64,000 nucleotides of DNA, taken from the NCBI GenBank assembly GCA_944324705.1, contig CALUXI010000001.1:1-64000 (forward strand), given 5' to 3'. The notes below the pieces were generated by a model. It made no database searches, had not been told where the DNA came from, and saw nothing but the letters and a program-made list of their open reading frames with translations. Source of the stretch: an uncultured Acholeplasmatales bacterium (GTDB lineage Bacteria; Bacillota_I; Bacilli_A; Acholeplasmatales; Anaeroplasmataceae). Shown piece after piece: positions 21,786-45,236 of the stretch (positions are counted from its first letter, which is position 1; every line of letters begins with the position of its first letter). A program made the position numbers and the translations under genes.

Positions 21786-21810
21786 AAAACCGCTTAATAG
21801 CGGCTTTTTT
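21784..21810. terminator. Bidirectional terminator between the amidohydrolase and ecfA
   Basis: CCGCT TAAT AGCGG hairpin flanked by A6 and T6 runs, placed between two convergent genes. Confidence 0.85.
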
Positions 21811-21815
21811 ATTTA

Positions 21816-23228
21816 TTAATTCTTAAAGTAACTTTTAACTAATTCCTTACCCCCTTTTTCTAATACTACCCCATTACCAATTAAAAAGGCGTTATCACAT
21901 AAAGCTTCGGCACATCTAATGTCATGGGTAATAGTTATGATGGTATTATTAGTTTCATTGTGGATTGTATTAATAATATTAGTTAAGGTGCATAACCCAT
22001 CATAGTCTTGACCTGCTGTAGGTTCATCTAATAATAAGACTTCCGGTTTAGCAGCTAAGACACAGGCTAAGGTTAATTTTCTTTTTTGACCTTCAGATAA
22101 AGATTGAGGGTGTCTATTTAAAAGATTAGTTAAGCCAAATAAATCAACTAATTTATGAGCATATTCTTCATTAATCGCCCCAAACTTAATTTCTTCCCAC
22201 ACACTAGGCATAAAGAGTTGATAATCAGGATTTTGATAAACTACTCCTACTTTTTTATACCATGCTTTACTTGGTTTATTATTCTTAAATTTAGGGTTAA
22301 GAGTTTGGGTAATTTTTCCACTTGTTGGTTTATAGAGTCTAGCAATTAATCTTAAAAGTGTCGTCTTCCCACAACCATTTTCCCCGAGGATGATATTCCT
22401 TGAACCTTTTAAGATATCTAAATTAATATCTTTTAAGATTTCTTTTTCACCTTCAACATTAAAACTAATATTAGTAAGATTAAAAAGAGGTTCATTAGAT
22501 TGGTGATTAGGACAAATATCAGCTATTTTAATACTTTCTTTTAAAAGATAATTATCTTTATCAGTTACTAAACTTAACTTTTTATTTTCCATATGATAAA
22601 CAATATCAACAAAAGGTAAAACCATATCTAGTCTATGTTCAATAACTACTACAGCATAACCGACTTTAGCGAGTTCCTTTAAGGTTAGCATTAAACTATT
22701 GGCTCCTTCTTTATCGAGATTAGCTAAAGGTTCATCTAAAATAATTATTTTTTGCCCCATTGCTAAAGTACTTGCGGTTATTAATCTTTGTTTTTGCCCA
22801 CCTGATAAGGTTCTACATTTGGCTTTCGGGTCTAATTTTAAAAGTTTAGTTACTACTTCAATTTGTTTTGTGATTTTACTAGGACTAAAGGCTAGGTTTT
22901 CACAACCAAAGGCAATTTCATCTTCTACAATATTTTGAATGATTTGCTCATCAGCATTTTGTAAGACTACTCCTACTTTACGACAAATATAAGACATTGT
23001 TTTACCAACAATACTTGTCCCGTCAACTAGAACATCACCAGTTAACCTACCATAATTAACATTAGGAATAATTCCACTAATGATATACATTAAAGTACTT
23101 TTACCCGATCCTGAATGGCCAGATAATAAAGTGACTTTGCCATATTCGGCTTTAAAATTAATATCTTCCAAAATATTTTCTTTTTCATCATAGGAAAAAT
23201 TAACTTTATTTAATTCAATTGCCATCAT
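21816..23228 (-). CDS. ECF transporter double ATPase (EcfA1A2 fusion)
   Basis: A 470-aa protein with two ABC ATPase domains in one chain. The first (residues 1-235) has Walker A LSGHSGSGKST, signature LSGGQKQRL and Walker B IILDEPLANLD; the second has LGENGCGKTT, LSEGQKRKL and VLLLDEPTAGQD. This is the form used in group I ECF transporters with a dedicated S component. It powers the EcfT/S pair encoded just upstream, overlapping ecfT by four bases. In the layout it is the counterpart of one of the SiaFGH proteins of Streptococcus pyogenes. Confidence 0.9.
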   Translation of the reverse strand: MMAIELNKVNFSYDEKENILEDINFKAEYGKVTLLSGHSGSGKSTLMYIISGIIPNVNYGRLTGDVLVDGTSIVGKTMSYICRKVGVVLQNADEQIIQNIVEDEIAFGCENLAFSPSKITKQIEVVTKLLKLDPKAKCRTLSGGQKQRLITASTLAMGQKIIILDEPLANLDKEGANSLMLTLKELAKVGYAVVVIEHRLDMVLPFVDIVYHMENKKLSLVTDKDNYLLKESIKIADICPNHQSNEPLFNLTNISFNVEGEKEILKDINLDILKGSRNIILGENGCGKTTLLRLIARLYKPTSGKITQTLNPKFKNNKPSKAWYKKVGVVYQNPDYQLFMPSVWEEIKFGAINEEYAHKLVDLFGLTNLLNRHPQSLSEGQKRKLTLACVLAAKPEVLLLDEPTAGQDYDGLCTLTNIINTIHNETNNTIITITHDIRCAEALCDNAFLIGNGVVLEKGGKELVKSYFKN

Positions 23229-23896
23229 ATAAATAACACTCCTACAGCAAGCCCTAATAAACCAAGAATAAATATTAAATCAGATACAGCTAAATTTTCT
23301 TTTTTATAAATAGTATAAGGTGCTTTACTTAAAGTAAAACCTCTTGTTTCTACTGATAAAGCTAGTGTATCTGAAATATTAACAAGTCGCATTACAAGAG
23401 GTATTAAAAAAGCGCGATATAAGATTTTAGGATTTAAGATATTACCAGCACCTCTTGTTTTCATCGCTTCTTTTACTCTTTTTATTTCACTACTTAAAAG
23501 AGGAATAAAAGACATCGCAATTAACATTCCTAAGGTTATACATCTTGGGGTTTTAACAGTTGATAGAGCTCTTGTCATTCTAACAGGACTTGTCGCCATC
23601 CCAGGAATTACAGCAATAAAAACAGCTCCTAGACGATTAGCCATAGCCCAACCACTATCTAATGTGTTTGTAGCTAGGTAAAAGATACCAAAGAAAATAC
23701 CACTCACAATAATAAATAAAGGTAAAACTTTAAGACATTCTTTAAAACAACCAAATAGCATTAAATAAATGTAAATAGCCCCTAAAAAGATTGAACAAGC
23801 TAACATTCTTTTAGCTATAACTAACCCAAAAACAACAATAAATAAACCAGAAATTATGGCTACTAAAGGATATAATTTATTCTTCCAAATAACCAT
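23225..23896 (-). CDS. ECF transporter T component (EcfT/CbiQ family)
   Basis: A 223-aa integral membrane coupling protein with about five helices. The two Ala-Arg-Gly-type coupling motifs are visible as RVKEAMKTRGAG (about residue 140) and ALSVETRGF (about residue 180); they transmit ATPase movement to the S component. It abuts the S gene (1-base overlap) and overlaps the ATPase gene, so the three form an S-T-A cassette. The stop codon is TGA. Confidence 0.9.
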   Translation of the reverse strand: MVIWKNKLYPLVAIISGLFIVVFGLVIAKRMLACSIFLGAIYIYLMLFGCFKECLKVLPLFIIVSGIFFGIFYLATNTLDSGWAMANRLGAVFIAVIPGMATSPVRMTRALSTVKTPRCITLGMLIAMSFIPLLSSEIKRVKEAMKTRGAGNILNPKILYRAFLIPLVMRLVNISDTLALSVETRGFTLSKAPYTIYKKENLAVSDLIFILGLLGLAVGVLFI

Positions 23897-24558
23897 TATC
23901 TTTTCATTACTCCCGATTTTTTAAGTTCTCTAGCAATTAAAACCCCGATAACAGAACCAAGAGTACAAACAGCTAAAACAGCTACACTCATACCTACAGC
24001 TACCCCGGCACTTGAACCAATAAAGGCATTTACAGCTTCTCCTTCTTCACCACTCCAAGAATATAAGAAATTATAATAAACATAAAGAAAAGGTAGCGTT
24101 AAAGGGAAATAGAAAATACCAGAAAATAAACTAGCTCGATCTTTGTTGTAACCTCTAAAAATTAAAATTACTAGAAGTTCGACTATGAAAGCACAAAGTA
24201 AGATACAGAAAAACATAATAGAATTCATAAAGACAAGTACTATCCCGCAACATAAAGACATGAATAGTAGAGCCCCAGGTTTTCTTACCTTCATTAAACC
24301 AATAACAGGGAAGATAGAAAACTGTAAACCTAGACAAACTTGAACAATGCCAAAAACCGGGATTTGCCCAACAAGTGGCATAATAGCCCCTGTTACTAAC
24401 ATACAAGCTGCCATAATGGCTAAAAAGACAATATCTTTTATTTTATATTTTTTAAAAATTTTATTTGTATCATCTCTTACTTTTTCTTTAATTTCTATAT
24501 TTTCATTACTATTTTCAACTATTTCTTCAGTTAAACTTTTAATATCGTCATTTGCCAT
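23896..24558 (-). CDS. ECF transporter S component (MptD / Trep_Strep family)
   Basis: A 220-aa membrane protein with about six helices after a charged head (MANDDIKSLTEEIVENSNENIEIKEK). KDIVFLAIMAACMLVTGAIMP and GIFYFPLTLPFLYVYYNFLY match the MptD/Trep_Strep S-component family as I remember it. Substrate is not fixed by sequence, but its place between two ABC ATPase-permeases and EcfT-EcfA, beside a heme-binding lipoprotein, fits the heme-linked ECF systems (SiaFGH, LhaSTA). It begins two bases past the preceding ABC gene. Confidence 0.8.
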   Translation of the reverse strand: MANDDIKSLTEEIVENSNENIEIKEKVRDDTNKIFKKYKIKDIVFLAIMAACMLVTGAIMPLVGQIPVFGIVQVCLGLQFSIFPVIGLMKVRKPGALLFMSLCCGIVLVFMNSIMFFCILLCAFIVELLVILIFRGYNKDRASLFSGIFYFPLTLPFLYVYYNFLYSWSGEEGEAVNAFIGSSAGVAVGMSVAVLAVCTLGSVIGVLIARELKKSGVMKR

Positions 24559-24559
24559 T

Positions 24560-26251
24560 TTATGCTTCCTCCATTACGCCATCTTTAACTTTATATAACC
24601 TATCACAAATTGCCATTGTTGATTCTCGATGAGATACTAAAATAATACTTTTCTTAGCTTTTTGTCGCGCTAAAGATTCTAAAATAATACCTTCATTAAT
24701 ACTATCAACATTACTTGTTGGTTCATCTAATAAGATTAATTCACTACCTTTTAAGAAGGCTCTAGCTAAACCTATTCTTTGTTTTTCTCCAGCTGATAAA
24801 TTATCGCCAAGAGATGTAACTTCTGTATTATAACCTTCTGGTAAACTCATTATAAAATCATGAATTGAGGCCATTTTACAAGCTTCTTCAATTTCTTGCA
24901 TAGTCGCATTAGGTTTAGCAATCTTTAAGTTTTCTAAGATTGTTTCATTAAATAAATAAGTTGTTTGACTAACTAAAGTTACATTATCAAGTAAATTAGC
25001 AGAATCAATATTATCAATATCAATATCATTATAATTAATATAACCTTTTTCTTTTTCCCAGAATCTTAATAATAACTTTAAGAAGGTTGATTTACCACAA
25101 CCAGAACGTCCTACAATCCCAATAACTTCACCTTTTTTCGCATGGAAACAAATATCTTTTAAAACTGGTAAATTAGCTTCATAACTAAATGATAAATCTT
25201 TAACATCTAAATTATCGTAGGTAAAGGTTTTACCATTTACTATTGGTTTAACGACTGGTTTTTCTTCAAGTAGATTTAAGACTCTATCCCCACTAGCAAA
25301 GGTTTGAGTTAAATTACCTGGTAAGGCTGATATGGCAATAACCGGACCAAAACTACCAAAGATAGTCACAATGCCAATTAACATTTTACCTAAATCTAAA
25401 TTATTATAATTATAAAGTAAGATTCCACTAACTAAAGCTATAACTATAAAGATAGTGACAAATAATTCAGTTATAGAAGCGGCTAGTGTAGTCGCATTTT
25501 TCATCTTTTTGGTTTCTTTAAGTAAAATATCTGACCTTTTATTTACTTCCTCTTCTCTTTCTTTTTCGGCATTATTTAAGACTATATCTTTAATACCTTT
25601 AATACTATCTAAAAAGTAAGCATTAAAAGAAGCAAATTCTTTTCTATAATTAACACCTGAAGCTTTAAGTTTACTTGAATTAATTAATGGTAAAATAATA
25701 CCAATAACAATAAAACCAAATAAGGCAATTAAGGCCAAATACCAACTAGATACAAAGCCAACAAACAAAATGACTATTAAAGAAACTAAAGTTGCGATAC
25801 AAATAGGTGAAATTGTATGAGCATAGAAAACTTCAAGAGTTTCAATATCCGATGTCAACATAGCAATAATATTACCTTTTTGTTTAGTTTCTAATTTAGC
25901 TGGGCATAATATTCTTAAAGCCCCAAAGATCTTATCTCTTAAAACAGCAAGTAACTTAAAGGCAATATAATGATTGCTGTATTGTTCTAGATATCTAAGA
26001 CCACCTCTTACAATCCCAAAACCTACAGCTAAGCCAATGATCAAACCCCAAGACATATTAATTGGGGCACAAAGCCCTAAAACTCCTAAAGCTTTAGCCA
26101 CGGCAGTAGCTCCTGAAATGGTAACCCCCATCGCTGCAATAAAGCCTACTGTCCCATTAATAACCGCAAGAATCATTATATATGATAAACTTCCTAAAAG
26201 TACGATTAAGGAAGCCATAATTTTCGCACCACTACGTCTTATTTTTTTCAT
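24560..26251 (-). CDS. ABC transporter ATP-binding/permease protein (CydC/SiaE-like half)
   Basis: A 563-aa fused membrane and ATPase subunit. Six helices occupy residues 10-300; the nucleotide-binding domain shows GRSGCGKST, signature LSAGEKQRIGLARAFL and ILLDEPTSNVD. The partner is the gene immediately upstream, which overlaps it by four bases; such pairs form heterodimers like CydDC, IrtAB or the SiaDE proteins of the streptococcal heme operon. The substrate is not shown by sequence; iron chelate, heme or thiol are all plausible. Confidence 0.88.
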   Translation of the reverse strand: MKKIRRSGAKIMASLIVLLGSLSYIMILAVINGTVGFIAAMGVTISGATAVAKALGVLGLCAPINMSWGLIIGLAVGFGIVRGGLRYLEQYSNHYIAFKLLAVLRDKIFGALRILCPAKLETKQKGNIIAMLTSDIETLEVFYAHTISPICIATLVSLIVILFVGFVSSWYLALIALFGFIVIGIILPLINSSKLKASGVNYRKEFASFNAYFLDSIKGIKDIVLNNAEKEREEEVNKRSDILLKETKKMKNATTLAASITELFVTIFIVIALVSGILLYNYNNLDLGKMLIGIVTIFGSFGPVIAISALPGNLTQTFASGDRVLNLLEEKPVVKPIVNGKTFTYDNLDVKDLSFSYEANLPVLKDICFHAKKGEVIGIVGRSGCGKSTFLKLLLRFWEKEKGYINYNDIDIDNIDSANLLDNVTLVSQTTYLFNETILENLKIAKPNATMQEIEEACKMASIHDFIMSLPEGYNTEVTSLGDNLSAGEKQRIGLARAFLKGSELILLDEPTSNVDSINEGIILESLARQKAKKSIILVSHRESTMAICDRLYKVKDGVMEEA

Positions 26252-27980
26252 GCTAAAGCCTCCTTTAATACTGTTTTATAACCTTCTTCTAGGCCTTTTT
26301 GAGTTAAATATAATTTAGCATAACTACCATTTTTAGCCATTAATTCATTATGACTACCTGATTCTACTAAATTACCTTCATCTAAGAAATAAATATTATC
26401 GGCATTAACTACATTAGCAAGTCTATGAGATATTAAAATAATGGTTTTATCTTTAGACATAGCTTTAACATTTTGCATAATAATACTTTCACTTTCAATA
26501 TCAATATTAGATGTAGCTTCATCAAAGATATAAATATCTTTATTAGCTACTAAATTAACTGCTAAAGCTAGTCTTTGTTTTTGCCCACCAGATATATTAT
26601 TAGCATCTTCGGTAATTACTTTATCTAAACCACCAAATTCTTTAATAAAGTTAGCTAAATTAACTTTTTCTAAAGCTTCATAAATTTCATCTTCTGATAC
26701 ATCTTCTTTAGCTAATTTAAAATTAGCTCTTACACTTTCGTTAAATATATAAGTATTATAAGAAACAACAGCTATTTTGCTGTAATAAGATTCTCTTTTA
26801 AACATTTCAATATTTTTATTTCCAACCAAAACTAAACCTGTTTGTGGGTGGTATGATCCAATTAGAAGACTGACAATGGTACTTTTACCACTACCACTTT
26901 TACCAACTATAGCTGTAACACCTTTAGGGAATGTCATATTAATATTATTTAAAACTTTTCTTTTACCATCATAACTAAAGGTAACATTTTCTAATGCTAA
27001 ATTAGTAGAAGTTACTTCTTCACTTCCCCAAATCGGATCTGGACTATTTAATAAACTAATTATCTTTTTACCAGCACTAGCCCCGTTCATTGCCACATGG
27101 AAAGCACTACCTAAACTTCTTAAAGGCAAGAAAAATTCAACGGCTACTAAGACTATAACCCTATTATAGGAGCTAAATACCCAGCCTTTAAACCTAATAC
27201 TACCATCATTATACCTAGTCCTGCTCCTCCATAAGCCACTAAATCCATAATCGTCGTACTAGCTAATTGCATAACCAAAACTTTCATCGTGATCTTTCTA
27301 AATTCTTCTGCACTTTCATTCATTTTAATATGACGTGCCCCATCAGCTTTAAAGATTTTTAATTCTTTTAAACCCTGAACACTATCTAAAAAGGCATCAC
27401 CCATTGAAGTATATTTACCCCAATATTTAGCAAAGATCTTTTTTGCATATTTACTAACAGCAATAATAGAAACCGGAATTAAAGGAACACAACAAAGTAA
27501 AACTAAGGATGTCCGCCAATCAAGACCTACACAAATGAAAAATAAGATAAAAGGAGCTAACATCGCGTAGAAAAATTGAGGTAAATAAGTTGAATAGTAA
27601 AGGTCTAATTGTTCAATACCTTCTAAAGATACTTGAGTTAAACCCGCCATACTCATATCTTCTGTACTTCTGACACCTAAAGTTAAAATTTTAGCATAAG
27701 TCTTTTCTCTTAAATCCTTTTTAACTTTTCTTCCTAACATATCTTTTAGCTTACCAGTAAAGTAACTTGCTATAAATCTAACAATAATACCACCAATTAG
27801 AGTAATACTAGGATATAAATAAGTAATAACTTCACTTCTATTAATAAGTAAATAAACAATCCAACAAATACTAGCAGTAATACTAATATTGGCTAACATT
27901 CCTAAAACCATTAATAAGATTGTATAAAAAACATATTTTTTATTACTACCTATTAACTTTAACAACTCTTTATCAAGCAT
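26248..27980 (-). pseudogene. ABC transporter ATP-binding/permease protein (CydD/SiaD-like half), frameshifted
   Basis: Two reading frames join into one about 577-aa ABC half-transporter. The permease part (27153-27980) ends APIIG and the ATPase part resumes with IVLVAVEFFLPLRSLGSAFHVAMNG after one missing base near 27158 (GGGTTATA where GGGTTTATA would keep frame). The ATPase domain has GKSGSGKSTIVSLL, ISGGQKQRLALAVNL and IYIFDEATSNID. No other damage is seen, so either the copy broke recently or a base was missed in a T run. It overlaps the YgbA-like gene upstream by 8 bases and its partner by 4. Confidence 0.82.
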
Positions 27981-28320
27981 GTTTTTTTCCTTCTTTCTTT
28001 AACTTTCTTTTATAACTTAACATTTGGCCTACATGTTTTATAGCAAATACCGGATGACTAAATAACATTCTTGGGCCTGCATATTTCATAACTTCTTTAA
28101 TCTTTACTTGCATATCCGGTTTATAACAATGAATTTTACAAAATGAACAAAACTTTTTATCTACTTTAAAAGGACATTTTTCTAATCTAAATAAAGCATA
28201 ATCAAGTAGTTCTTGACATTCCGGACATAAGTCTTTTTGTCGATGTTTACCTTGACAATATTTTTTAATCATCACGGGGATTAATTTCTTTTCTTGTTCC
28301 CAAGCTTTATATTCTTTCAT
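27973..28320 (-). CDS. Nitrous oxide-stimulated promoter family protein (YgbA_NO)
   Basis: A 115-aa cysteine-rich protein. The cluster CPECQELLDYALFRLEKCPF and CSFCKIHCYKPDM followed by KEVMKYAGPRMLF is the hallmark of YgbA (PF11756), an NO-induced protein needed for recovery from nitrosative stress in enterobacteria. It is the first gene of the ABC-ECF operon, overlaps the next gene by 8 bases, and lies directly behind three putative DtxR-type boxes. The linkage suggests a role tied to iron or heme under NO stress. Confidence 0.85.
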   Translation of the reverse strand: MKEYKAWEQEKKLIPVMIKKYCQGKHRQKDLCPECQELLDYALFRLEKCPFKVDKKFCSFCKIHCYKPDMQVKIKEVMKYAGPRMLFSHPVFAIKHVGQMLSYKRKLKKEGKKHA

Positions 28321-28336
28321 ATAGACCTCTTCTCTA

Positions 28337-28352
28337 GTTTGCCATAGCTAAC
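28337..28352. promoter_or_regulatory. Putative DtxR-type operator, box 1 of the YgbA-ABC-ECF operon
   Basis: GTTTGC CATA GCTAAC, an imperfect 16-bp palindrome in the leader of the operon. Its centre is 34 bases from that of the next box. Confidence 0.5.
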
Positions 28353-28370
28353 TGATATTTCAAAAAAATA

Positions 28371-28386
28371 GTACGGTATAACGAAC
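28371..28386. promoter_or_regulatory. Putative DtxR-type operator, box 2 of the YgbA-ABC-ECF operon
   Basis: GTACGGTATAACGAAC, palindromic at all but two position pairs. It is centred 34 bases from box 1 and 34 bases from box 3. Confidence 0.55.
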
Positions 28387-28403
28387 CTAACTACTTGAAA
28401 ATA

Positions 28404-28421
28404 GGTTCCCTACCGCGAACC
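28404..28421. promoter_or_regulatory. Putative DtxR-type operator, box 3 of the YgbA-ABC-ECF operon
   Basis: GGTTCCCTACCGCGAACC, an 18-bp imperfect palindrome placed just downstream of a TATACT -10 on the minus strand, where a bound repressor would block initiation. Confidence 0.55.
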
Positions 28422-28427
28422 ATATAA

Positions 28428-28458
28428 AGTATATAATTTTTTTAAGAAAAATACAAGT
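28428..28458 (-). promoter_or_regulatory. Promoter of the YgbA-ABC-ECF operon
   Basis: On the minus strand TTGTAT, 17 bases and TATACT lie immediately before box 3. The -35 is weak and the -10 good; the position relative to the palindromes supports it. Confidence 0.45.
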
Positions 28459-28469
28459 AAAAAATCATT

Positions 28470-28503
28470 AAAAAGAGGTTAAAAGCTTAAACTTCTAACC
28501 TCT
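28470..28503 (-). terminator. Terminator after the LRR lipoprotein of the heme operon
   Basis: AGAGGTTA and TAACCTCT form an 8-bp stem, followed on the minus strand by T5. It divides the island into two transcription units. Confidence 0.75.
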
Positions 28504-28509
28504 AAATTA

Positions 28510-31500
28510 TTAAACAACCATTGGCCAAACAACTAAATCTTTGCCTTCATAATGCCAATAATTACCATCATTAATTGGGTCTTCTTCAGAATAATAGTAA
28601 GCCTTATTTTTAATACTTGTTGGTAGACTTACTTCGGCAAAATCTTCTTCGGTACCATTTAAGTAATATTTTTCAATACTTGAATTACCCATCGCACTAC
28701 TATTAACATTTGTAAGGCTTGAAGGTAATATTAATTCAATTAGACTTGTGCAATCTCTAAATACATAACGATTAATAGTTGTTAAAGTATTAGGTAAAGT
28801 AACACTTGTTAATTTAGAACACCCTTGAAATATTCTTTCTGGTAATTCTTGAATATAACTTGGTAAAGTGATATCTGTAAGAGAAGTCATATAAGCAAAG
28901 GCATAACTAGCTAAGGTTATACTTTCTTCTCTAGATTCTACAAAGTTAATCTTATCAATAGCAGAATACGCAAAAGCCCGAGTGCCAATATTTGTTAAAG
29001 TTGTGCCAAATTCTAAAGTTTTAAGTCTAGTTGTATAAGCAAAGGCATATTCCCCAATTGAAGTTAAACCTTCTAAATTAAGAATATAAGATTCCGTCAT
29101 CGGAGCATTAAACATCATAACATTTGAATAAGCAAAAGCATATTCACCAATACTTAAACAAGTTGAAGGGTCATTAAAGACAATTCTTAAAACATCAACA
29201 TTGTAGAAAGCATAAGCCCCAATTCCTGTAACACTAGCTGGGATGGTTATAGAGGTAAAACTCTTGCCAGCAAAGGCACCAGGATAAATTTCATAATTAG
29301 AAATTGTTTTATCCCCTACCGCAAATGAATCTGGTAAAGTAATCATACCACCATCTTTATTATAAGAAACTAAATAAGCTTTTTCAGTTTCCAAAAGATA
29401 TAAGAAAGTATAACCATCAGAAGTTGTTATAAGTTTTGAGTTACCTTCCGCATTATAAATATTAGAAGCTTCAGGTAATGTTTCAAGACTTGTAAGGTTA
29501 TAAACTTCTGCTAAACTAGCACCACTAAAAGCATCACTAGCTAGACTTGTTAAAGTACTTGGTAAAGTTACAACTTTAAGAGCATAACAATTACTAAACA
29601 CACCTGCTTCAATAGTTTCTACACTGCCTAAATTTATATTATTTAAACTTTCACAATTACTAAATGCATCTTCTTTAATAGTTTTAACACTACTAGGTAA
29701 ATTAATACTACTTAAGACTTCACATCCACTGAAAGCTCCATTACCAATTGTAGTTAAACTACTATTTTCAGCAAATGTTACACTTTCTAGATTTGTGCAA
29801 TCACTGAAGGCTCTAGCCCCAATTGAAGTAACACTTGCAGGAATTACTAAACTTGTAATATTTAGATTACCATTAAATACATTACCAGCAATACTATAAC
29901 TTGAAATAGTTGTCTCATTTACTACAAAATTTGCCGGTAATTCCAATTTTCCTTCTATTTCGCCATTATAAGCTGTAACTACCCAAACATTTTCACCATT
30001 ATTATATAGTGTATAATTATCAACTGTTACATAAGAACTGTCTGGTTTAGTATTTCTTACTACTTCAGCATATAAAGCAATACTACCATTATCAGTGTTA
30101 CCAGCTGTAATAGTTAAATTACTTAAATTAATAATTTCAATTAAACTAGTATTACCAGAACAAGAACTGATTGATGTAACACCTTGAGGAATAGTTAGAC
30201 TTCTAAGACTTGTACAACCACTAATACCTCTTAAAGTTGTTAAATCACTATCTTCGGCAAAATTAACACTTGTAAGACTCGTACATCCATTTAAGGCATT
30301 ACTTGCCAATTCGGTAACACTGCTAGGTATTGTTATACTTGTTAAAGATACACAATCTTCTAAAAAGTTACTAGGAATAACTGTAATTCCTTCAGGTAAA
30401 ACAATGCTTTCTAAATTAGAACAGCCACTAAACATTGTAGATGCTAATTTAGTAACATTTGTAGGAAGGGTGATATTTGTTAAACTTGTACAATTTTGGA
30501 AAGTTTGATTACCAAAAGAAACGTCTTGAAGATTATTATTAAAATCAATTTCTACTAAACTATCATTATTACTAAAAGCACTAGAACCAATACTTGTAAG
30601 ATTATTAGATAAGATGATTTTTGTAAATTCACTATCTAAGAAGGCAGAATTAGGAATTGAAATATAAACACTTAAATCACAAACTCCTTCTTCACTAGAA
30701 TTAAAAGTCTTTAAAGATGAACAACGAATAAATAAAGAATTAGGAAGCGTAATAGAAGTAGGAACACTTGCACTAACTAAGTTTATACAATCACTAAAGG
30801 CAGAGGTTCCTAAAGAAGTTACAGAGTCGGGAACTATGATGCTTGTTAAACCAGCATTCATAAAACAACTACTACCAATACTTTCTACACTACTTGGAAT
30901 ATTTATATTTTTTAGACTTTGACAATTATAAAATGCACTATTACCGATGCTTGTAATCTTATTTCCTAAGGTAATACTTTCTAAATTAGTATTACCATAA
31001 AAGGCATTATTAGGAATAGCTGTTAAATCAGCACTTAAAACAACTTCTTTTAAACCAGCATTTTGGAAAGCCATAGTCCCAATTGTTGTTACATTATTTA
31101 AATTAATAGAACTTAAATTAGAACATCCATAGAAAGCTCCAATCCCAACTGATACTAAATTAGCTCCTAATGTAACACTTTCAATTTCGATGTGATTCAT
31201 AAAGACACTAGATTGTAAGGATACACCTAATAAAGTTTCACCATCGGCAATCCCAACAACAGGTAAATCACTATAAGTATCAGGAATAACAATTGTGTCC
31301 CAAGCATGGGAATTATAAGAACTTAAGATATAACCTGTTCCTTCTTCATTTAAGGTAAATGTCATATCATCAATTTGTTCAGCACCGCAGACAGAACATT
31401 TCCCATTTTCATAAGTATGACCAGTTGCTTTTTCAATTGTTCTAACACCTAAAACTTCACTGTGACTAGCATCTGTATAGGTTGTTCTTACACCATCTTC

Positions 31501-32739
31501 AATACAAGTAGCTTTAGTTTCACTTACATTAGCAGGTAAAGAACTACCTCCTTCAATACCTAAATCAAATTCATAAACAGTCCCATCTGTCATATAAATA
31601 TATAAAATTGAATCAGCTAAATGAATATTAGAAATACCAACTCCATCATTCCCATCTTCTCCTTTAACAAGACCGGCATCAAGAGTTGAACCATCAGATA
31701 AAGTTAAGATTAAATGACCATTTTCATCAATTACAGCACTTTTAATTCCACTAACTGGAGTTTCTTCCGGTTGTTCAATTTCTGTCATACCTTTAATTTC
31801 TAAGGTAGCAGCTTCCATTGAAGCAGAAGGGCCATCATTAACAAATTGACCACCCATAACTTGGGAATTAATATAGAAAGTAACATTTAATGAACTTAAG
31901 TCAGCAAGGCTTCCTACATTTTCTAAAACCATATTAATCTCTGTTACATAACGAACAGGAGTATAATTAGTCCCACCTTCAGGATCTGGGGCACTACAAG
32001 TATCATCTTCTGCACTTAAAGTATAAGTTACCCCATCAGTAACAATATTACCATTAGCATCATAGTAACCAATTGAACCAAGTGGAACTGGTGATAGACT
32101 AGAGTCTGCCGTAGTGCTAGTCGCAGCCGGGTCAATAAAGGTATCACAAGTAATACCATATATTGTGACACTACTTTTACCTACTTCTAAGCTTAATAAA
32201 TAACGATTTTCACTTTCAGATAAAACAGTTAAAGTAGCGCTCTTTAATAGACCATTACCAAATTCCACACCACCCATCGCATTAATATAGGCATTAAGGG
32301 ATGCATCTAGTTCGTAGACTGGACCACTCACTTCAGTTTCAGAGTTTTCTACAGCATAAAGCGTCATATCTTCAGTTACAACATAACCCGCAAAACTCCA
32401 AATTTCGGTTACTCCACTTTCATATTCATAATACCATTTAGTTATGGCATTACCATTACTATCAACATAAGTTGGCAAGGTTGCCTTAGTACCTTCTTTA
32501 ACTTCCTGGGTTCCATAAATAGTCCCATCCTCACTGGCAAAAGTAATGGTATAAGTTTCCGGTTCCGGAATAACCGGAGTTTCATCTTCACCATCATCAG
32601 GATCTACAACAGGTGGAATATTATCATCTTTTTTAGTATCATCATTACAAGCAGCTAAAGTAGCTACACTACTGACAGCTAAAAAAGCCCCTAAAATCCT
32701 TGTCAATATAATTCTTGTTTTTCCTTTTTTGTTTTTCAT
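28510..32739 (-). CDS. LRR surface lipoprotein with Shp/NEAT-like domain (Shr analogue, heme locus)
   Basis: A 1409-aa lipoprotein (lipobox LAAC, Cys31). After a Pro/Asp linker comes an InlB-type B repeat (YTITFASEDGTIYGTQEVKEG, about 63-130). Residues about 141-318 repeat the domain of the small lipoprotein at the head of the operon: DASL, AMGG.EFG (Met155), SVTIY.ITC.TFIDP (Cys198), IGYYDA.GN and INS.VMG.QF (Met295). Next are a GEDGNDGVGI segment and one CSVCG module, then many LRR_5 repeats (IGNSAFYNCQSLKNI type) to the end. Streptococcal Shr, the heme receptor, also joins NEAT domains to LRRs. It follows the heme ATPase by 12 bases, with GGAG before the ATG. Heme capture is inference. Confidence 0.8.
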   Translation of the reverse strand: MKNKKGKTRIILTRILGAFLAVSSVATLAACNDDTKKDDNIPPVVDPDDGEDETPVIPEPETYTITFASEDGTIYGTQEVKEGTKATLPTYVDSNGNAITKWYYEYESGVTEIWSFAGYVVTEDMTLYAVENSETEVSGPVYELDASLNAYINAMGGVEFGNGLLKSATLTVLSESENRYLLSLEVGKSSVTIYGITCDTFIDPAATSTTADSSLSPVPLGSIGYYDANGNIVTDGVTYTLSAEDDTCSAPDPEGGTNYTPVRYVTEINMVLENVGSLADLSSLNVTFYINSQVMGGQFVNDGPSASMEAATLEIKGMTEIEQPEETPVSGIKSAVIDENGHLILTLSDGSTLDAGLVKGEDGNDGVGISNIHLADSILYIYMTDGTVYEFDLGIEGGSSLPANVSETKATCIEDGVRTTYTDASHSEVLGVRTIEKATGHTYENGKCSVCGAEQIDDMTFTLNEEGTGYILSSYNSHAWDTIVIPDTYSDLPVVGIADGETLLGVSLQSSVFMNHIEIESVTLGANLVSVGIGAFYGCSNLSSINLNNVTTIGTMAFQNAGLKEVVLSADLTAIPNNAFYGNTNLESITLGNKITSIGNSAFYNCQSLKNINIPSSVESIGSSCFMNAGLTSIIVPDSVTSLGTSAFSDCINLVSASVPTSITLPNSLFIRCSSLKTFNSSEEGVCDLSVYISIPNSAFLDSEFTKIILSNNLTSIGSSAFSNNDSLVEIDFNNNLQDVSFGNQTFQNCTSLTNITLPTNVTKLASTMFSGCSNLESIVLPEGITVIPSNFLEDCVSLTSITIPSSVTELASNALNGCTSLTSVNFAEDSDLTTLRGISGCTSLRSLTIPQGVTSISSCSGNTSLIEIINLSNLTITAGNTDNGSIALYAEVVRNTKPDSSYVTVDNYTLYNNGENVWVVTAYNGEIEGKLELPANFVVNETTISSYSIAGNVFNGNLNITSLVIPASVTSIGARAFSDCTNLESVTFAENSSLTTIGNGAFSGCEVLSSINLPSSVKTIKEDAFSNCESLNNINLGSVETIEAGVFSNCYALKVVTLPSTLTSLASDAFSGASLAEVYNLTSLETLPEASNIYNAEGNSKLITTSDGYTFLYLLETEKAYLVSYNKDGGMITLPDSFAVGDKTISNYEIYPGAFAGKSFTSITIPASVTGIGAYAFYNVDVLRIVFNDPSTCLSIGEYAFAYSNVMMFNAPMTESYILNLEGLTSIGEYAFAYTTRLKTLEFGTTLTNIGTRAFAYSAIDKINFVESREESITLASYAFAYMTSLTDITLPSYIQELPERIFQGCSKLTSVTLPNTLTTINRYVFRDCTSLIELILPSSLTNVNSSAMGNSSIEKYYLNGTEEDFAEVSLPTSIKNKAYYYSEEDPINDGNYWHYEGKDLVVWPMVV

Positions 32740-32751
32740 AAATACTCCTTC

Positions 32752-33531
32752 TTATGCAAATACACAAAATTTTTTACCATCAATATAAGCAATTCTTGCT
32801 TTAACATCATAAGCTTTTTCTAATAAATCTTCCGTAATCACTTCATCAGCGGTACCTGTAGCTAAAATATTACCATCTTTCATCATTACAATATTATCAG
32901 CATAACGAATTGTTTGATTGATGTCATGTAAAACCATTAAAACAGTAGTTTGGTATTCTTTATTTAATTTATTTATTAAATTTAAGATTTCATATTGATA
33001 ATGAACATCTAAATAAGTAGTAATTTCATCTAATAATAATGTTTCATGGGTTTGAGCTAAAGCTAGAGCTAACCAGACTCTTTGCATTTGGCCACCCGAT
33101 AATTCTTTAACTTGCCTATCAGCAAACTCCAATGTATCCGTTTCTATCAAGGCTCTTTCAACAGCTTTGTAGTCCTCTTCATTAGACCGGGAAAACATTT
33201 GATTATGATAACTAGTACGCCCCATATGAACTAGTTGTCTAACTGTCATATCATTAGGTACAGTATTATATTGATGAACAGCTGCCACTTTTTTAGCATA
33301 ATCTTTTCTTGGAATATTAGTTATTTCTTCTCCTCCAAAATAAATGGCTCCACTACGCGGTTTATAAATCTTAGTTAGTAAGGCAAATGTTGTTGTTTTC
33401 CCACAACCATTAGGACCAATTAAAGCTGTAATTTTACCTTTTGGAATTTCTAAACTAATATTATTTAAAACTTGAGTTGTTTTAGCATAACCAAAACTAA
33501 TATTTTCTAATTTAAATATGGTATTAGGCAT
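32752..33531 (-). CDS. Heme/iron ABC transporter ATPase (FecE/HtsC-like)
   Basis: A 259-aa ATPase of the iron-chelate/heme/B12 importer class. Walker A is IGPNGCGKTT (about residues 36-45), signature ELSGGQMQRVWLALALA, Walker B LLLDEITTYLDVHYQ and switch VLHDINQTIRYAD. It overlaps the FecCD permease by eight bases and is followed at once by the LRR lipoprotein. It energises import of the ligand delivered by the IsdE/HtsA-like binding protein two genes upstream. Confidence 0.9.
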   Translation of the reverse strand: MPNTIFKLENISFGYAKTTQVLNNISLEIPKGKITALIGPNGCGKTTTFALLTKIYKPRSGAIYFGGEEITNIPRKDYAKKVAAVHQYNTVPNDMTVRQLVHMGRTSYHNQMFSRSNEEDYKAVERALIETDTLEFADRQVKELSGGQMQRVWLALALAQTHETLLLDEITTYLDVHYQYEILNLINKLNKEYQTTVLMVLHDINQTIRYADNIVMMKDGNILATGTADEVITEDLLEKAYDVKARIAYIDGKKFCVFA

Positions 33532-34532
33532 GTTTTCTACTCCTTAAAAGTAACACAATAAATAACGGACCACCAACAATAGACATTATAATATTTACAC
33601 CTATTTCATAAGGGTAAGCTATCCAGCGTCCTACCGTATCAGCTACTAAGAAAAATAGGGCTCCTAATATAGCACTATAAGGAATTAGTTTCTTATGATC
33701 ATTTCCTACTAATAGACGGGCAATATGCGGGGACGATCAAACCTAAAAAACTAATACTACCAACTACGGCGGTCGCGGCTGAAGCTAAAAATACAGCCAC
33801 AATTGAAACTTCAAGTCTAGTTCTTGCTACATTAACCCCAATACTACTTGCTAGTCTATCTGATAATCCTAAAAGATTACATTTCTTACAGCAAAAGATA
33901 CTAGCTGCAATACCTATTAAAACATAAATTAGTAGAGTTAAAACATCATTCCAATTCTTTAAGGAAATATTAGATTCCACAATACTTGCTGCCCCGGAAT
34001 AATTGCCTCCTGTCATTTGATTAAAGGCTTCTGATAAACCAGTAAATAAAGCATCTACCGCAATCCCAATTAAGATAAGTCTTACCGGACTTAATCCACC
34101 TTTCCAAGCTAAAATGTAGACAATCCCAAAAGCTAGTATACCCCCGGCAAAAGAAAATAAAGGAGAAAATGAGCCAAGTGCCGGAGCAAAGGCAGTCACT
34201 AAGACAGCCACAAAACTAGAACCGGCACTAATACCAATTATACCGGGATCTGCTAAAGGACTCTTCATAACAGCTTGAGTAATTACCCCTGAAACCGCCA
34301 TCGCCATCCCACCTAAGATGGCTACAAAAATTCTTGGGAAACGTAATTGAACAATGATTGCGACGTTTTCATTATATTCTAAAAAAATACCTTTAAATAA
34401 ATCTGTAAATGAAACCTGAATACCACCAATATTAGCAGCTAAAATCATAAAGACAACTAATAAGATGATCGTTATCGTAAAAACAAGAACAGTTTTTAAA
34501 GCTCCCGTTTTTTTCTTAATAGTTTCAGCCAT
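33524..34532 (-). pseudogene. Heme/iron ABC permease (FecCD family), frameshifted near the 3' end
   Basis: The frame from 34532 reads a FecCD permease (FPRIFVAILGGMAMAVSGVITQAVMKSPLADPGIIGISAGSSF ... VVGSISFLGLIVP) and then breaks near 33732. One extra G in a G4 run (plus strand) turns the expected PHIARLLVGNDHKKLIPYSAILGALFF into an early stop. The second frame continues intact through DTVGRWIAYPYEIGVNIIMSIVGGPLF and RSRKHA to 33524, giving a normal length of about 335 aa. With nothing else damaged, an assembly indel is as likely as mutation. It starts two bases after the binding-protein gene. Confidence 0.85.
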
Positions 34533-34534
34533 TT

Positions 34535-35421
34535 TTAACTTTCCTCAGCAAAAACAACATCTGTTAAATAATCAAAAGAATCATACCATTCTAAATTAGC
34601 ACTCATCCCAAAACCATAATCTGAAGATAAATAATATACTTCACCCTCTTGAACAGCTCTAAAACTTTGCCAAATCTCACCAGTAGCTATTTCTTCTTTC
34701 ATATAATTAAAAGCATTTTCTTCATCATAATGGGCAAAGACAACTATTTTATCAGGATCAGTTTGGACCATATGTTCAGGATTAACAGCCGCTACACCGG
34801 AACCATCAGAAACATAATTTTTGTCATAAACACACTTGCCACCTGCTAATTCAATTAAATTACCTACATAAGAATCAGCTGTAACAATGAGATAAAAACG
34901 TCCTGGATAAGCCATTAATATTAATACACTATCTGGATCTTCTGACTTAATTTGGTTATCAGCAACATAACTTTCATATTCTTGTCTTAAGGCTAAAGCT
35001 TCCTCTTCTTTACCATATTTTTCCCCTAAGGCATCAATGTCTTGATACATTCCTTCAACACTTGATAAATCAAAATACATAGCCTCAATCCCAGAACTTT
35101 CAAATTGGGCAGAAAGACCGGCCTCTAATGTTTTTGGAACGATTACAATCTCCGGGTTTACTTGGCTTAATATTTCCATATCTGGAGTCATCGCATTCCC
35201 AATTTTAGTCGCATCTTTATAGCGTTCTGGCAGTGGAATATCTTCAGCTGCATCAGTACTCCTACTACTTCATCAATACCTAAACGGTCTAAGATTTCGC
35301 AGATTGCTAGAGAAGTCGTAGCTATGCCATGAGGTTCGTCCCTAGTACCAGTTAAGCCACAACCACTTAAAAGAAGGACCCCAAGCATTCCCCCAAATAA
35401 AGTAACTTTAAGTTTACTCAT
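34535..35421 (-). pseudogene. Heme-binding lipoprotein of an ABC importer (IsdE/HtsA-like), frameshifted
   Basis: A lipoprotein (LLLSGC, Cys21) of the class III substrate-binding fold. Joined across one missing C near 35256 it reads EVVGV-PDAAEDIPLPERYKDATKIGNAMTPDMEIL. Met78 in IGNAMTPD and His231 in VVFAHYDEENAF sit where IsdE and HtsA place their axial heme ligands (Met78/79 and His229), and the tail IWQSFRAVQEGEVYYLSSD...FGMSANLEWYDSF also matches that family as I recall it. Heme rather than siderophore is therefore the best substrate call. I start at 35421: GGAGG precedes it and it overlaps the upstream stop (TAATG). Only one frame change is seen. Confidence 0.85.
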
Positions 35422-35999
35422 TAAACGGCCTCCATAGTATTCCAATCTACCGTTAAAGTGGCCTTATAACCATCAATAGTAAATTGCATTCCCATAACAT
35501 TGGAGTTAATAAAGAAAGATAAATTATATTCTTCGACCTTTTCCGTAATTGGGAAAGTGATTGAATCAACATAATTAATATTTTCCCCGGCCGGATTTAA
35601 AGCTGTATCATCACTTAAGGTGTGACTAACACCTTCTGTAATTAAATTGCCTTCCGCATCATAATACCCAATAGTACCATTAGCTGGTGCGCCTTCTTCT
35701 GGTTCTTCTCCTGAACTAGGAATAGGATCAATAAAGGTATAACAAGTAATTGAATAAATTGTGACACTGTTTTTCGTTAAAGAAAGTGTAAGTTCTTTTG
35801 TACCATCTTCATTAACTATGTAAGTTACACCTTCAAGTAGTGGTTCTCCAAACTCAATTCCACCCATAGCTGGTACATAACAACTTAGACTAGCATCAAC
35901 ACTATAGGAGCCTGGTTCTTCCGTACCTTCTTCCCCTCCAGCACAACTTGCTAAAACTAGAGCTAATACTCCTAAAAGAGAAAATAATATTTTTTTCAT
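35421..35999 (-). CDS. Small surface lipoprotein with Shp/NEAT-like putative heme-binding domain
   Basis: A 192-aa lipoprotein (MKKILFSLLGVLALVLASC, Cys19). The mature part is one beta-rich domain: YSVDASLSCYVPAMGGIEFG (Met45), SVTIYSITCYTFIDP (Cys86), IGYYDAEGN, DSITFPI and FFINSNVMGMQF (Met169). The same domain is found once in the LRR lipoprotein downstream. Two invariant methionines recall Shp of S. pyogenes, which holds heme between two Met side chains, and the gene occupies the Shp position, just before the HtsA-like gene. The heme role is inference. I start at 35999 because GGAGG stands seven bases upstream. Confidence 0.75.
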   Translation of the reverse strand: MKKILFSLLGVLALVLASCAGGEEGTEEPGSYSVDASLSCYVPAMGGIEFGEPLLEGVTYIVNEDGTKELTLSLTKNSVTIYSITCYTFIDPIPSSGEEPEEGAPANGTIGYYDAEGNLITEGVSHTLSDDTALNPAGENINYVDSITFPITEKVEEYNLSFFINSNVMGMQFTIDGYKATLTVDWNTMEAV

Positions 36000-36039
36000 G
36001 ACATTCCTCCACACAAATTCTTTATTTACTTTTAATCTC

Positions 36040-36055
36040 GTTCGCTATAGCGAAC
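36040..36055. promoter_or_regulatory. Putative DtxR-type operator, leader of the heme operon
   Basis: GTTCGCTATAGCGAAC, a perfect 16-bp palindrome 41 bases before the small lipoprotein start. Confidence 0.65.
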
Positions 36056-36110
36056 ATATATCTTTAAAAGAAATACACTTTAAAGTGCATAAATAAAGAA
36101 AAATCTTTTA

Positions 36111-36126
36111 GTTCGCCTATTCGAAC
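36111..36126. promoter_or_regulatory. Putative DtxR-type operator at the heme operon start site
   Basis: GTTCGCCTATTCGAAC, 5-bp perfect arms around a 6-base centre, at the predicted transcription start. Confidence 0.65.
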
Positions 36127-36132
36127 ACTAAT

Positions 36133-36161
36133 ATGTTAGCACCGGCTAACTACTTTGTCAA
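36133..36161 (-). promoter_or_regulatory. Promoter of the heme operon with operator in the core
   Basis: On the minus strand TTGACA (36156-36161), 17 bases and TAACAT (36133-36138). The palindrome GTTAGCACCGGCTAAC (36135-36150) fills the spacer and overlaps the -10, the classical position for a DtxR-family repressor. Confidence 0.7.
36135..36150. promoter_or_regulatory. Putative DtxR-type operator in the heme promoter core
   Basis: GTTAGC ACCG GCTAAC, 6-bp perfect arms, lying between -35 and -10. It is close to the TTAGGnnnnnnCCTAA class bound by iron-type DtxR regulators. Confidence 0.7.
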
Positions 36162-36171
36162 TAATAAAATC

Positions 36172-36206
36172 AAGAAAAAAACTCTAAGTTTTTTAAGACT
36201 TAGAGT
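36172..36206 (-). terminator. Terminator after the first DtxR-type gene
   Basis: ACTCTAAGT and ACTTAGAGT form a 9-bp stem, followed on the minus strand by a T7 run, so the heme operon needs its own promoter. Confidence 0.8.
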
Positions 36207-36211
36207 GTGTA

Positions 36212-36580
36212 TTATTCTTTAATAAATTCTCTAAAGACCTTCATTAAATCTTCAGAGACAACGTGTTCAATTCGGCATGCATTCTCTTCAGCAAGTTCTG
36301 GATTAGCCCCTAACTTAATTAAAGTTTTCGTTAGAGTTTGATGTCTTTCGTAAACATTTTCAGCTTTTTCTTTCCCGGCTTTTGTAAATACTAAATTACC
36401 AGTCTCTCTATCAATTTTAATATAACCTTTTTGTTCAAGTAAATTAACTCCTCTTGATACACTAGACTTAACATACCCTAAAGCTTCACAAACATCAACT
36501 GAACGCACTATAGATTTTGTATTATGTAATAACAAAATTGTTTCTAAATACATTTCTTCTGATTCTCTGTTTTTAATCAT
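36212..36580 (-). CDS. DtxR/MntR-family metal-dependent repressor (copy 1)
   Basis: A 122-aa regulator. Residues 5-65 are the winged helix (ESEEMYLETILLL ... VCEALGYVKSSVSRGVNLLEQKGYI). The dimerisation and metal part ends LAEENACRIEHVVSEDLMKVF, where CRIEH keeps the Cys/Glu/His ligands of the DtxR/MntR site. It lacks the SH3-like C-terminal domain, as in short MntR-type proteins. It sits directly upstream of the heme operon; in S. pyogenes the DtxR-family MtsR represses the sia heme operon. It is the best candidate to bind the nearby palindromes. Confidence 0.9.
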   Translation of the reverse strand: MIKNRESEEMYLETILLLHNTKSIVRSVDVCEALGYVKSSVSRGVNLLEQKGYIKIDRETGNLVFTKAGKEKAENVYERHQTLTKTLIKLGANPELAEENACRIEHVVSEDLMKVFREFIKE

Positions 36581-36628
36581 CTTTTAACCTCCAGCAAAAA
36601 ACGGCTTCATAACAACATTTTTATTTTA

Positions 36629-41418: not shown

Positions 41419-41781
41419 TTAACCTAATACTTTATTCTTAATAATTAAAAATAATTCTTCACTAATAATATGCTCAATTCTACATGCATTGTCTTCAGCT
41501 AATTCTTGACTTGCTCCTAAACTAGCAAAAAACTTAGTTAAAATTGTGTGTTTTTCATATACTTGACTAGCTTTAGCATAACCACTTTCCGTCAATTCTA
41601 ATTGCCCATCTTGATGAAAAATAATATAATTATCTTTTTCTAAAAGTCGCATAGCTCTTGAAATACTAGGTTTAGAATAACCCATAGCATTAGCCACATC
41701 AATTGAATGAACTTTTTTACCACTTTTTACTAAAAGATAAATTGTTTCTAAATACATTTCCATTGATTCATTATTCTTCAT
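41419..41781 (-). CDS. DtxR/MntR-family metal-dependent repressor (copy 2)
   Basis: A 120-aa paralogue of the regulator at 36212: winged helix ESMEMYLETIYLL ... VANAMGYSKPSISRAMRLLEKDNYI and the same metal-site end LAEDNACRIEHIISEEL. It overlaps the YoaK-like gene by 11 bases and lies about 3 kb from feoAB. One copy may sense iron and the other manganese, or they may share operators; sequence does not say which. Confidence 0.9.
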   Translation of the reverse strand: MKNNESMEMYLETIYLLVKSGKKVHSIDVANAMGYSKPSISRAMRLLEKDNYIIFHQDGQLELTESGYAKASQVYEKHTILTKFFASLGASQELAEDNACRIEHIISEELFLIIKNKVLG

Positions 41782-42858: not shown

Positions 42859-44907
42859 CTACAATAAGGCTCCCCAAATTCCAACTAGGGATGCTAAAAG
42901 CCATGCTAAACCTGTTTGGAATAATATTGCTCGCCAGAAATCATGCCCATTATTTAATTCTCGTTTCATTGCCCCAATAGCACCAAAACATGGAGCACTA
43001 AATAATGTAAAAATCATATAACCCATAGCACTAAAACCATTAAAGAAACTGAACATACCATTACCACCAAAGACATTACCACCTTCACCTACTGCTGTAA
43101 TAATTTCCATAGATGATACAACTTGTTCTTTAGCTACTAAACCTTGAATAGCCGAAACTGAAGCACCCCAAGAGAAATTCATACCTAACATAGGGGCAAA
43201 TATCCAAGAAATTGATCTACCTATATCAGCTAATAAACTTTCATCTACATTTTCAACATATTGGAATTGATAATTAACATTTAATAAAACCCAAACTACT
43301 ATTGAACATAGAAAAATGATTGTACCTGCTCTTTTAATAAATGCCCAAGTTTTAGATCCTACATCTTGTAAAACATAGCTGGCGCTAGGAATATGATAAT
43401 TTGGAAGTTCTTGAATATAACTTGTTGATTTATTTTTAACAAAAAACTTATTCAAAATAAAACCAGATAAAACAATTACTACTATTGCTAAAATATACAT
43501 ACCAGCTGTAACTAACCAATTAGCCCCAAATATTCCTCCAACAAAACAAGAAATAATTGGCAACTTAGCTGAACAAGGCATAAAAGGTGTTAAAGTTACA
43601 GTCATTTGATGTTCATTTTTATTTTCAATAGTTCTTGAACCCATAATTGCTGGTACAGAACAACCAGTACCAACAATAAACGGAATCAAACTCTGGCCTG
43701 ACATACCAAGTTTTTTAAATAATCTATCAAATAAAAAAGTTACTCTACCCATATAACCTGATGTTTCAAGCAAACTCAATAAAAGGAACAAAATCATAAT
43801 TTGAGGTACGAAATTAAGTACTGCCCCAACCCCGGCAACTACCCCATCAGCCACCAGACTAGCGGCCCAAGCTGAGCCACCCGCATTAGTAATACTATCA
43901 GCAAGTAGCGGTCCTAGGCCTGTAATTCCATCTCCTAAAGAAACTTCATAAGCTGCCCAAGGCAATGGAAATTCTATTGTATCTCCACCATTAAATAAAA
44001 TATCGACAATATTTACTGTTGCCCCACCAACTAAACCAACACTAAGTAAATATATTAAAACCATAATGATTAAAAAAATGGGGATAGCAAACCATTTATT
44101 TAATAAAATCTTATCTGCTTTAGCTGTTAAATTAACATTATTTTTCTTTGTTTTAGTTACAACTACATCTCTAATTTTTTCAATGTAATCATAACGAGCT
44201 CCCGCTATAATTTCTTCACTATCTAACTTTTCTTCTCTTTCAATTAATTCTATCTTTTCATTAAATTTCTCAGCATAATATTTATTATAATATCTCTTAT
44301 CTCTTTCAAATATTTTTATAGCTGCAAATCTTTTTTCAAAGATATCATTATCTATTTCCTTTTCTATTTCACTTACTAAACTTTCTATTTCTTTATTAAA
44401 TATTTTATTTTCCCTAACCCTAGTATTATTAAAATTCTTAATTGTATTAATTAATTCTTTAATTCCTGTCTTTTTTAAAGCACTAATTGATACACACTTA
44501 ATACCTAAAATGCTTTCTAATTTTTTTACATCTATAGCTAAGCCTTTCTTACTTAAGATATCTTGCATATTTAAAACAGCTATAACTGGAATTCCTAATT
44601 CAATTAATTGAGTTGTTAAATAAAGTGCTCTTTCAATTGAAGTTGAATCAATTATATTAATAATTAAATCAGGTTTATCATTAACTATAAATTGTCTTGA
44701 TATTTCTTCCTCACTAGTATAGGGAGACAAACTATAAATCCCTGGCAAATCCGTTATAGATATATCAGTACCTCTAATAACTCCATCTTTTCTATCAACC
44801 GTTACACCTGGCCAGTTCCCTACTTTTTGATTTAACCCCGTTAAATGATTAAATAATAAAGTTTTACCACTATTTTGATTTCCTACTAAAGCGCATGTCT
44901 TAATCAT
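42859..44907 (-). CDS. feoB: Ferrous iron transporter FeoB
   Basis: A 682-aa Fe(II) permease. The cytoplasmic G domain has GNQNSGKTLLFNHLTG (G1), NWPGVTVDRKDG (G2), DLPGIYSLS (G3), NMQD (G4) and ISALK (G5). The membrane part carries Gate motifs FIVGTGCSVPAIMGSRTIENKNEHQMTVTLTPFMPCSAKLP and the second Gate around WGASVSAIQGLVAKEQVVSS. It overlaps feoA by eight bases. Two putative DtxR-type boxes flank the operon promoter. Confidence 0.96.
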   Translation of the reverse strand: MIKTCALVGNQNSGKTLLFNHLTGLNQKVGNWPGVTVDRKDGVIRGTDISITDLPGIYSLSPYTSEEEISRQFIVNDKPDLIINIIDSTSIERALYLTTQLIELGIPVIAVLNMQDILSKKGLAIDVKKLESILGIKCVSISALKKTGIKELINTIKNFNNTRVRENKIFNKEIESLVSEIEKEIDNDIFEKRFAAIKIFERDKRYYNKYYAEKFNEKIELIEREEKLDSEEIIAGARYDYIEKIRDVVVTKTKKNNVNLTAKADKILLNKWFAIPIFLIIMVLIYLLSVGLVGGATVNIVDILFNGGDTIEFPLPWAAYEVSLGDGITGLGPLLADSITNAGGSAWAASLVADGVVAGVGAVLNFVPQIMILFLLLSLLETSGYMGRVTFLFDRLFKKLGMSGQSLIPFIVGTGCSVPAIMGSRTIENKNEHQMTVTLTPFMPCSAKLPIISCFVGGIFGANWLVTAGMYILAIVVIVLSGFILNKFFVKNKSTSYIQELPNYHIPSASYVLQDVGSKTWAFIKRAGTIIFLCSIVVWVLLNVNYQFQYVENVDESLLADIGRSISWIFAPMLGMNFSWGASVSAIQGLVAKEQVVSSMEIITAVGEGGNVFGGNGMFSFFNGFSAMGYMIFTLFSAPCFGAIGAMKRELNNGHDFWRAILFQTGLAWLLASLVGIWGALL

Positions 44908-45194: not shown

Positions 45195-45201
45195 TAACTA
45201 A

Positions 45202-45229: not shown

Positions 45230-45236
45230 GATAAAA

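Follow-up and report, generated by a model that had tools for sequence, protein, structure and literature searches.

Gene content of the island

The window, which is the whole 64,000-nucleotide stretch of DNA that was analysed from an uncultured Acholeplasmatales bacterium, carries a horizontally acquired island at 21786..36628, with bounds that are set by the empty site in congeners. The island features two operons on the minus strand. In order of transcription, the first genes encode a DtxR-family metal-dependent repressor (36212..36580), a NEAT-like surface lipoprotein with an LASC lipobox for which the heme relay role of Shp is proposed (35421..35999; AlphaFold2, Foldseek and hhalign), an IsdE/HtsA-type heme-binding lipoprotein (34535..35421, frame broken near 35250; TIGR03659 and the PDB entries of IsdE and Lmo2184), a FecCD-type permease (33525..34532, frame broken near 33730), a FecE-type ATPase (32752..33531), and a BspA-type LRR lipoprotein (28510..32739; LRR_5, 489 bits). 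The LRR lipoprotein contains a Flg_new repeat and a second NEAT-like domain (31786..32385), which is 48% identical to the domain of the small lipoprotein. The second operon encodes a YgbA_NO family protein (27973..28320; PF11756, 135 bits), a CydD-like ABC ATPase-permease in the putative role of SiaD/E (26248..27980, frame broken near 27150), a CydC-like ABC ATPase-permease (24560..26251; TIGR02868, 301.7 bits, which does not reach the cut-off of 329), an ECF S component of the Trep_Strep/MptD family (23896..24558; PF09605 and TIGR02185), an ECF T component (23225..23896; PF02361, CbiQ), and an ECF A component with two ATPase domains in one chain (21816..23228; PF00005 twice and the ECF_ATPase models).

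An earlier note on this DNA, made from the letters alone, had named these gene classes and compared them with the shr-shp-siaA-H operon of Streptococcus pyogenes. Pfam and NCBIfam searches recovered every class in its place on the minus strand, including both domains of the DtxR-type regulator (PF01325 and PF02742), and the class-by-class match holds against the published composition of the sia operon (shr, shp, siaABC/htsABC, siaDE and siaFGH under MtsR; PMC6593403). The receptor, the IsdE-type ABC importer, the ABC pair, the ECF S-T-A importer and the DtxR-family regulator are all present together, and the two systems share a NEAT-fold relay by class composition. The island differs from the sia operon in that its receptors are lipoproteins that Pfam does not detect as Shp or NEAT, in the presence of ygbA, and in its division into two operons, each preceded by operator-like repeats. 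We recognised in it no Shr-like protein of full length that has hemoglobin-interacting domains. By description, the LRR lipoprotein resembles HupY/LrrG of S. pyogenes, an LRR surface protein linked with heme use and iron repression (PMC6593403); however, HupY/LrrG is an LPXTG protein, whereas the island protein is a lipoprotein that combines BspA-type LRR_5 repeats with a NEAT-like domain. A 1579-aa predicted lipoprotein is also encoded in the window, outside the island, at 10161-14900.

The receptor domain

One and the same domain (E 2e-30) occurs in the small lipoprotein and in the LRR protein, where it spans residues ~119-318, and a whole-genome search with the lipoprotein domain found a single further copy, the one inside the LRR lipoprotein. 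Family searches with 41 copies of this domain gave no Pfam match to NEAT (PF05031, 0/41 at E<=1) or Shp (PF11545) and nothing of note in NCBIfam, and a sequence search of the PDB with the domain gave no notable match; PF05031 and PF11545 matches are also absent from the whole genome. The structure of the lipoprotein domain was modelled with AlphaFold2 from the 41 aligned copies (pLDDT 92.4, pTM 0.85). The first seven Foldseek matches to this model in the PDB come from NEAT domains of S. aureus and from Shp of S. pyogenes, with probabilities of 0.97-1.00 and E-values of 0.007-0.04; IsdA ranks first (probability 1.00), Shp ranks fifth (0.98), and IsdH is among the top matches. Across the list, NEAT chains reach probabilities of 0.8-1.0 and every non-NEAT match stays at or below 0.30, with E-values for the NEAT matches no better than 0.007-0.05 and TM-scores of about 0.4-0.54.

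Profile comparison with hhalign used a NEAT profile of five Pfam-confirmed NEAT domains and a Shp profile of six Shp domains. The receptor domain scored 29.7 against NEAT, where the maximum in 200 column shuffles was 18.1, and the link stays when the LRR-type copies are excluded (27.9, 0/100 shuffles as good). The LRR-type copies alone give a borderline link to NEAT (2/100 shuffles as good). Against Shp the score was 15.2, and 36/200 shuffles were as good; the Shp and NEAT alignments, despite their common fold, also missed each other in profile comparison. For the domain of the LRR protein (pLDDT 87), Foldseek gave no convincing NEAT match, the best being IsdH with a probability of 0.57.

An unrelated beta-sandwich, with a likeness to the streptococcal operon that arose by convergence, would fit the lack of NEAT or Shp matches in Pfam and of notable NCBIfam matches in the 41 members, the lack of notable PDB sequence matches, and the missing profile link to Shp. 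This is very unlikely, given that the NEAT score exceeds all 200 shuffles, that NEAT chains separate from all others in the structural search, and that the receptor gene lies in an IsdE context in 19 of 21 loci. On the Foldseek and hhalign results, we call the lipoprotein domain a remote NEAT-like domain, with a NEAT-like fold by prediction. The domain of the LRR protein is probably NEAT-like as well, through its homology to the lipoprotein domain. The fold comparison that the earlier note had proposed came out NEAT-like for the lipoprotein; for the LRR protein, whose domain is clearly homologous to that of the lipoprotein, it gave weak matches. The note was right that the receptors are not close to Shr or Shp. 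Its suggestion of an independent version is rejected, since the importer is homologous to IsdE/HtsABC, the receptor domain has remote homology to NEAT, and the island was acquired horizontally.

The domain shares with PF05031 and PF11545 a predicted beta-sandwich, with best PDB matches to both and profile similarity to NEAT, but differs in its core, which measures 150-180 aa and contains a long inserted loop. The YXXXY heme motif of NEAT strand 8 is absent and N.VMG.QF is found instead in 40/41 copies, which together with AMGG.EF forms a pair of near-invariant motifs. A 2014 survey of NEAT domains reported outliers of 159 aa from Clostridium methylpentosum and Eggerthella that lack the usual motifs (PMC4143258), which may be earlier sightings of this receptor family.

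Candidate heme ligands

Met36 in the AMGG.EF motif and Met160 in the N.VMG.QF motif are each conserved in 40 of the 41 receptor copies. The lone exception (L023, 4637-5188) is missing both methionines together, and this copy offers a natural test of the Met ligand hypothesis. The heme ligands of Shp are Met66 and Met153 (PMC2266757), which are found in the Shp sequence of 2Q7A within GQGMVEG and VEPMGRE at a constant offset of 28; VEPMGRE resembles the VMG.QF of the receptor domain. The solved NEAT domains of S. pyogenes all use Met pairs, and other NEATs use Tyr (PMC12796733). The Met pair of the receptor domain resembles those in Shp and in NEAT1 and NEAT2 of Shr (PMC2266757, PMC12796733). 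Based on the conservation of the two methionines in nearly every copy, we predict that the receptor domains bind heme via bis-Met ligation, as Shp and Shr do.

Transport components

The 218-aa fragment of the IsdE-type protein scores 181.9 bits with the IsdE model TIGR03659, and the next models reach at most 42 bits. The curated cut-off of 298.65 is missed by this fragment because the N-terminal part lies in another frame. PDB matches of the protein are Lmo2184 (7e-31) and S. aureus IsdE (3e-22). The positions that align with Met78 and His229 of IsdE, its axial heme ligands (the residue numbers fit a constant offset of 29), are conserved here and in 25/25 sequences. The earlier expectation that the binding protein groups with IsdE/HtsA, and not with siderophore or B12 proteins, is borne out, as TIGR03659 is the best model by far.

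In the second operon, the scores of the ABC pair with the CydC and CydD models are under the curated cut-offs. The genome, which is 97% complete, has no PF01654 match for cytochrome bd subunit I, so the CydDC-like pair serves no cytochrome bd. CydDC of E. coli is a transporter that takes heme across the membrane, and that of enterococci has been tied to heme uptake (PMC11282960). The ECF S component matches the Trep_Strep/MptD family alone in both Pfam and NCBIfam. LhaSTA of Staphylococcus lugdunensis, an ECF transporter within an isd-type heme locus, imports heme (PMC7299338), and an ECF heme importer has also been reported from S. pyogenes (Chatterjee 2020, as cited). Gene context suggests a role in heme transport for the ECF importer and the ABC pair of the island. 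YgbA proteins belong to nitrosative-stress regulons of enterobacteria, and gene context would link the protein to heme in the island. A search for HutW, which is involved in anaerobic heme degradation, gave at best 137 bits, where the cut-off is 400; this match was set aside because the family model matches all 14 control genomes. Elsewhere in the same genome (L081, 10827-13575), a sulfite/nitrite reductase-like gene has beside it another FecCD-type importer, which comes with a binding protein of its own.

These parts could import another tetrapyrrole or iron chelate in place of heme, such as breakdown products of plant chlorophyll, cobalamin or a siderophore. Chlorophyll derivatives are present in the gut lumen, FecCD and FecE of the island score to siderophore models, and the ECF S component belongs to a family that has no known substrate here. 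A substrate other than heme is nevertheless unlikely in view of the NEAT-like fold of the receptor, the full conservation of the Met and His ligands of the binding protein, and the siderophore and BtuF model scores of 23 and 19 bits against 181.9 for IsdE.

Operator-like repeats and regulation

Upstream of the receptor operon are three operator-like inverted repeats. The first, GTTAGC-N4-GCTAAC, is located between TTGACA and TAACAT at 36135..36150, the second has one mismatch (36111..36126), and the third is GTTCGC-N4-GCGAAC (36040..36055). Two further copies are found upstream of the ygbA operon, one with one mismatch at 28405..28420 and one at 28337..28352. The 16-bp repeat GTTMGC-N4-GCKAAC has eight sites with at most one mismatch in the 1.64 Mb genome: the receptor operon is preceded by three, ygbA and feoA by two each, and a ZIP-type transporter by one. 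When the pattern is loosened slightly, the window contains seven matches, where 0.4 are expected. The GTTCGC-N4-GCGAAC repeat is also present upstream of the receptor gene in five relatives, and the same or a sister repeat in most relatives. The two copies in the feoAB promoter region lie within window positions 45179-45252 and 44900-45160, and the site of the ZIP-family metal transporter gene is 15 bp before that gene (G000:C2:62939-62954, which is L081 4940-4955). Since the feoAB promoter has the same operator-like repeat, the island is probably wired into the iron regulon of the host. Candidates for binding the repeat are the DtxR-type proteins encoded at 36212-36580 and 41419-41781; a homologue of the former with 58% identity is encoded upstream of the receptor gene in L022. 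The putative operators would thus place the island under iron control.

Relatives and horizontal transfer

A scan of 84,980 species genomes found 21 loci with the receptor domain, nearly all in uncultured gut Clostridia (Borkfalkia, Scatosoma, Oscillospiraceae, Eubacterium and others), the non-Clostridia loci being one from Treponema and one from an Erysipelotrichaceae MAG. The order receptor, IsdE, FecCD, FecE is repeated among the relatives, and this recurrence of the module with the same gene order takes the island beyond chance. In the closest clade (L017-L022, and L016, which is cut by the contig end) an LRR protein follows FecE; other loci have one or more extra copies of the receptor domain after FecE. 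The CydDC-like pair is nearby in L018, L024, L025, L027, L029 and L031, YgbA in L024, L027 and L031, and ECF genes in L018, L020 and L027. The receptor of L033 (10823-12694) features two tandem NEAT-like domains on an SLH (S-layer-homology) protein, and the receptor of L031 has an apparent C-terminal sorting signal, as read from its sequence.

The full receptor domain was found in no other of the 160 same-order genomes searched, where two sub-domain matches were seen (E 2e-4 and 5e-4), and the best IsdE matches within the genus are far weaker. In the congeners L068, L071 and L072, the flanking amidohydrolase and TrmH-like genes are about 40 bp apart, which reveals an empty site. The IsdE of the window is nested in a nine-row Clostridia (Borkfalkia) clade with a support of 100/100. 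We conclude that the island was transferred from distantly related gut Clostridia, most likely of the Borkfalkia/Scatosoma type. The synteny in relatives for which the earlier note had proposed a survey is found in Clostridia and not in the other same-order genomes searched, and the idea of the island as a product of its own gut lineage does not hold.

The loci of the IsdE clade have a GC content of 54-64% and the island has 32%, with a third-position GC near that of host genes. The DNA is about 66% identical to that of relatives and the IsdE protein 78-86%. These contrasts point to an old transfer followed by selection, or to an unsampled low-GC relative as the direct donor. Searches of plasmid and viral collections gave no match.

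Frame breaks

In the earlier note the genes for IsdE, FecCD and the first of the ABC proteins were read as unbroken; each is in fact split by a frame break, which gives three breaks in 14.8 kb. The relatives are intact across the breaks; the CydD-like protein is one ORF of 582 aa in L018, and the break near 33730 is the same single-frame disruption against five relatives. On inspection the flanking genes look unbroken, apart from a short RecQ-like ORF (window 46607-47719) of 370 aa, which is short for its family and possibly truncated. The sequence past each break stays open, which indicates that the breaks are recent or are assembly errors. Because IsdE, the permease and CydD are frame-broken here and not in relatives, this copy of the island may be recently inactivated, non-functional, misassembled or mis-sequenced.

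The cluster of breaks next to unbroken flanks could mean that the island in this genome is a decaying remnant without a present function. Such decay deserves weight but is the less probable reading, as the higher identity of the IsdE protein than of the DNA and the host-like third-position GC speak for long purifying selection, and open reading past the breaks speaks for recent events or assembly errors.

Proposed mechanism and significance

The whole of the evidence is best explained by a metal-repressed heme-acquisition island that was taken over from gut Clostridia, to which we assign a probability of roughly 0.78. In this model, surface lipoproteins with remote NEAT-like domains, one of them fused to a BspA-type LRR receptor, would bind heme, which is most likely held between two conserved methionines. 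The NEAT-like lipoproteins would hand heme to the IsdE-type lipoprotein, which would supply the FecCD/FecE ABC importer. The second operon, with the same operator, would add an ECF importer, probably for heme, and the CydDC-like ABC pair may be a membrane transporter of heme or thiols. The gene content, the homologies, the NEAT-like fold of the lipoprotein, the conserved Met pair and IsdE ligands, the repeats, the insertion site and the frame breaks come from computation, and on top of them we infer heme binding, bis-Met ligation, the heme relay, the ECF substrate, iron control and the repeat-binding regulator.

The wider finding is a NEAT-like family that is absent from family libraries and spread over gut Clostridia. 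On balance, we favour the view that these bis-methionine NEAT-like heme receptors form a family that had gone unrecognised, occurs as lipoproteins, LRR fusions, SLH proteins and possibly cell-wall proteins, and helps many uncultured gut Clostridia to acquire iron. Horizontal transfer of a complete sia-type island would have carried it from one bacterial class to another. The Isd and Shr-Shp strategies of capturing heme at the surface have been studied mainly in pathogens. If the domains bind heme, the same strategy would be widespread among gut commensals, where the family models now in use miss it. The Met-ligated NEATs, for which S. pyogenes is the source reported so far (PMC12796733), would then extend to gut anaerobes, and it would become possible to test directly whether heme from the diet or the host is connected with gut Clostridia.
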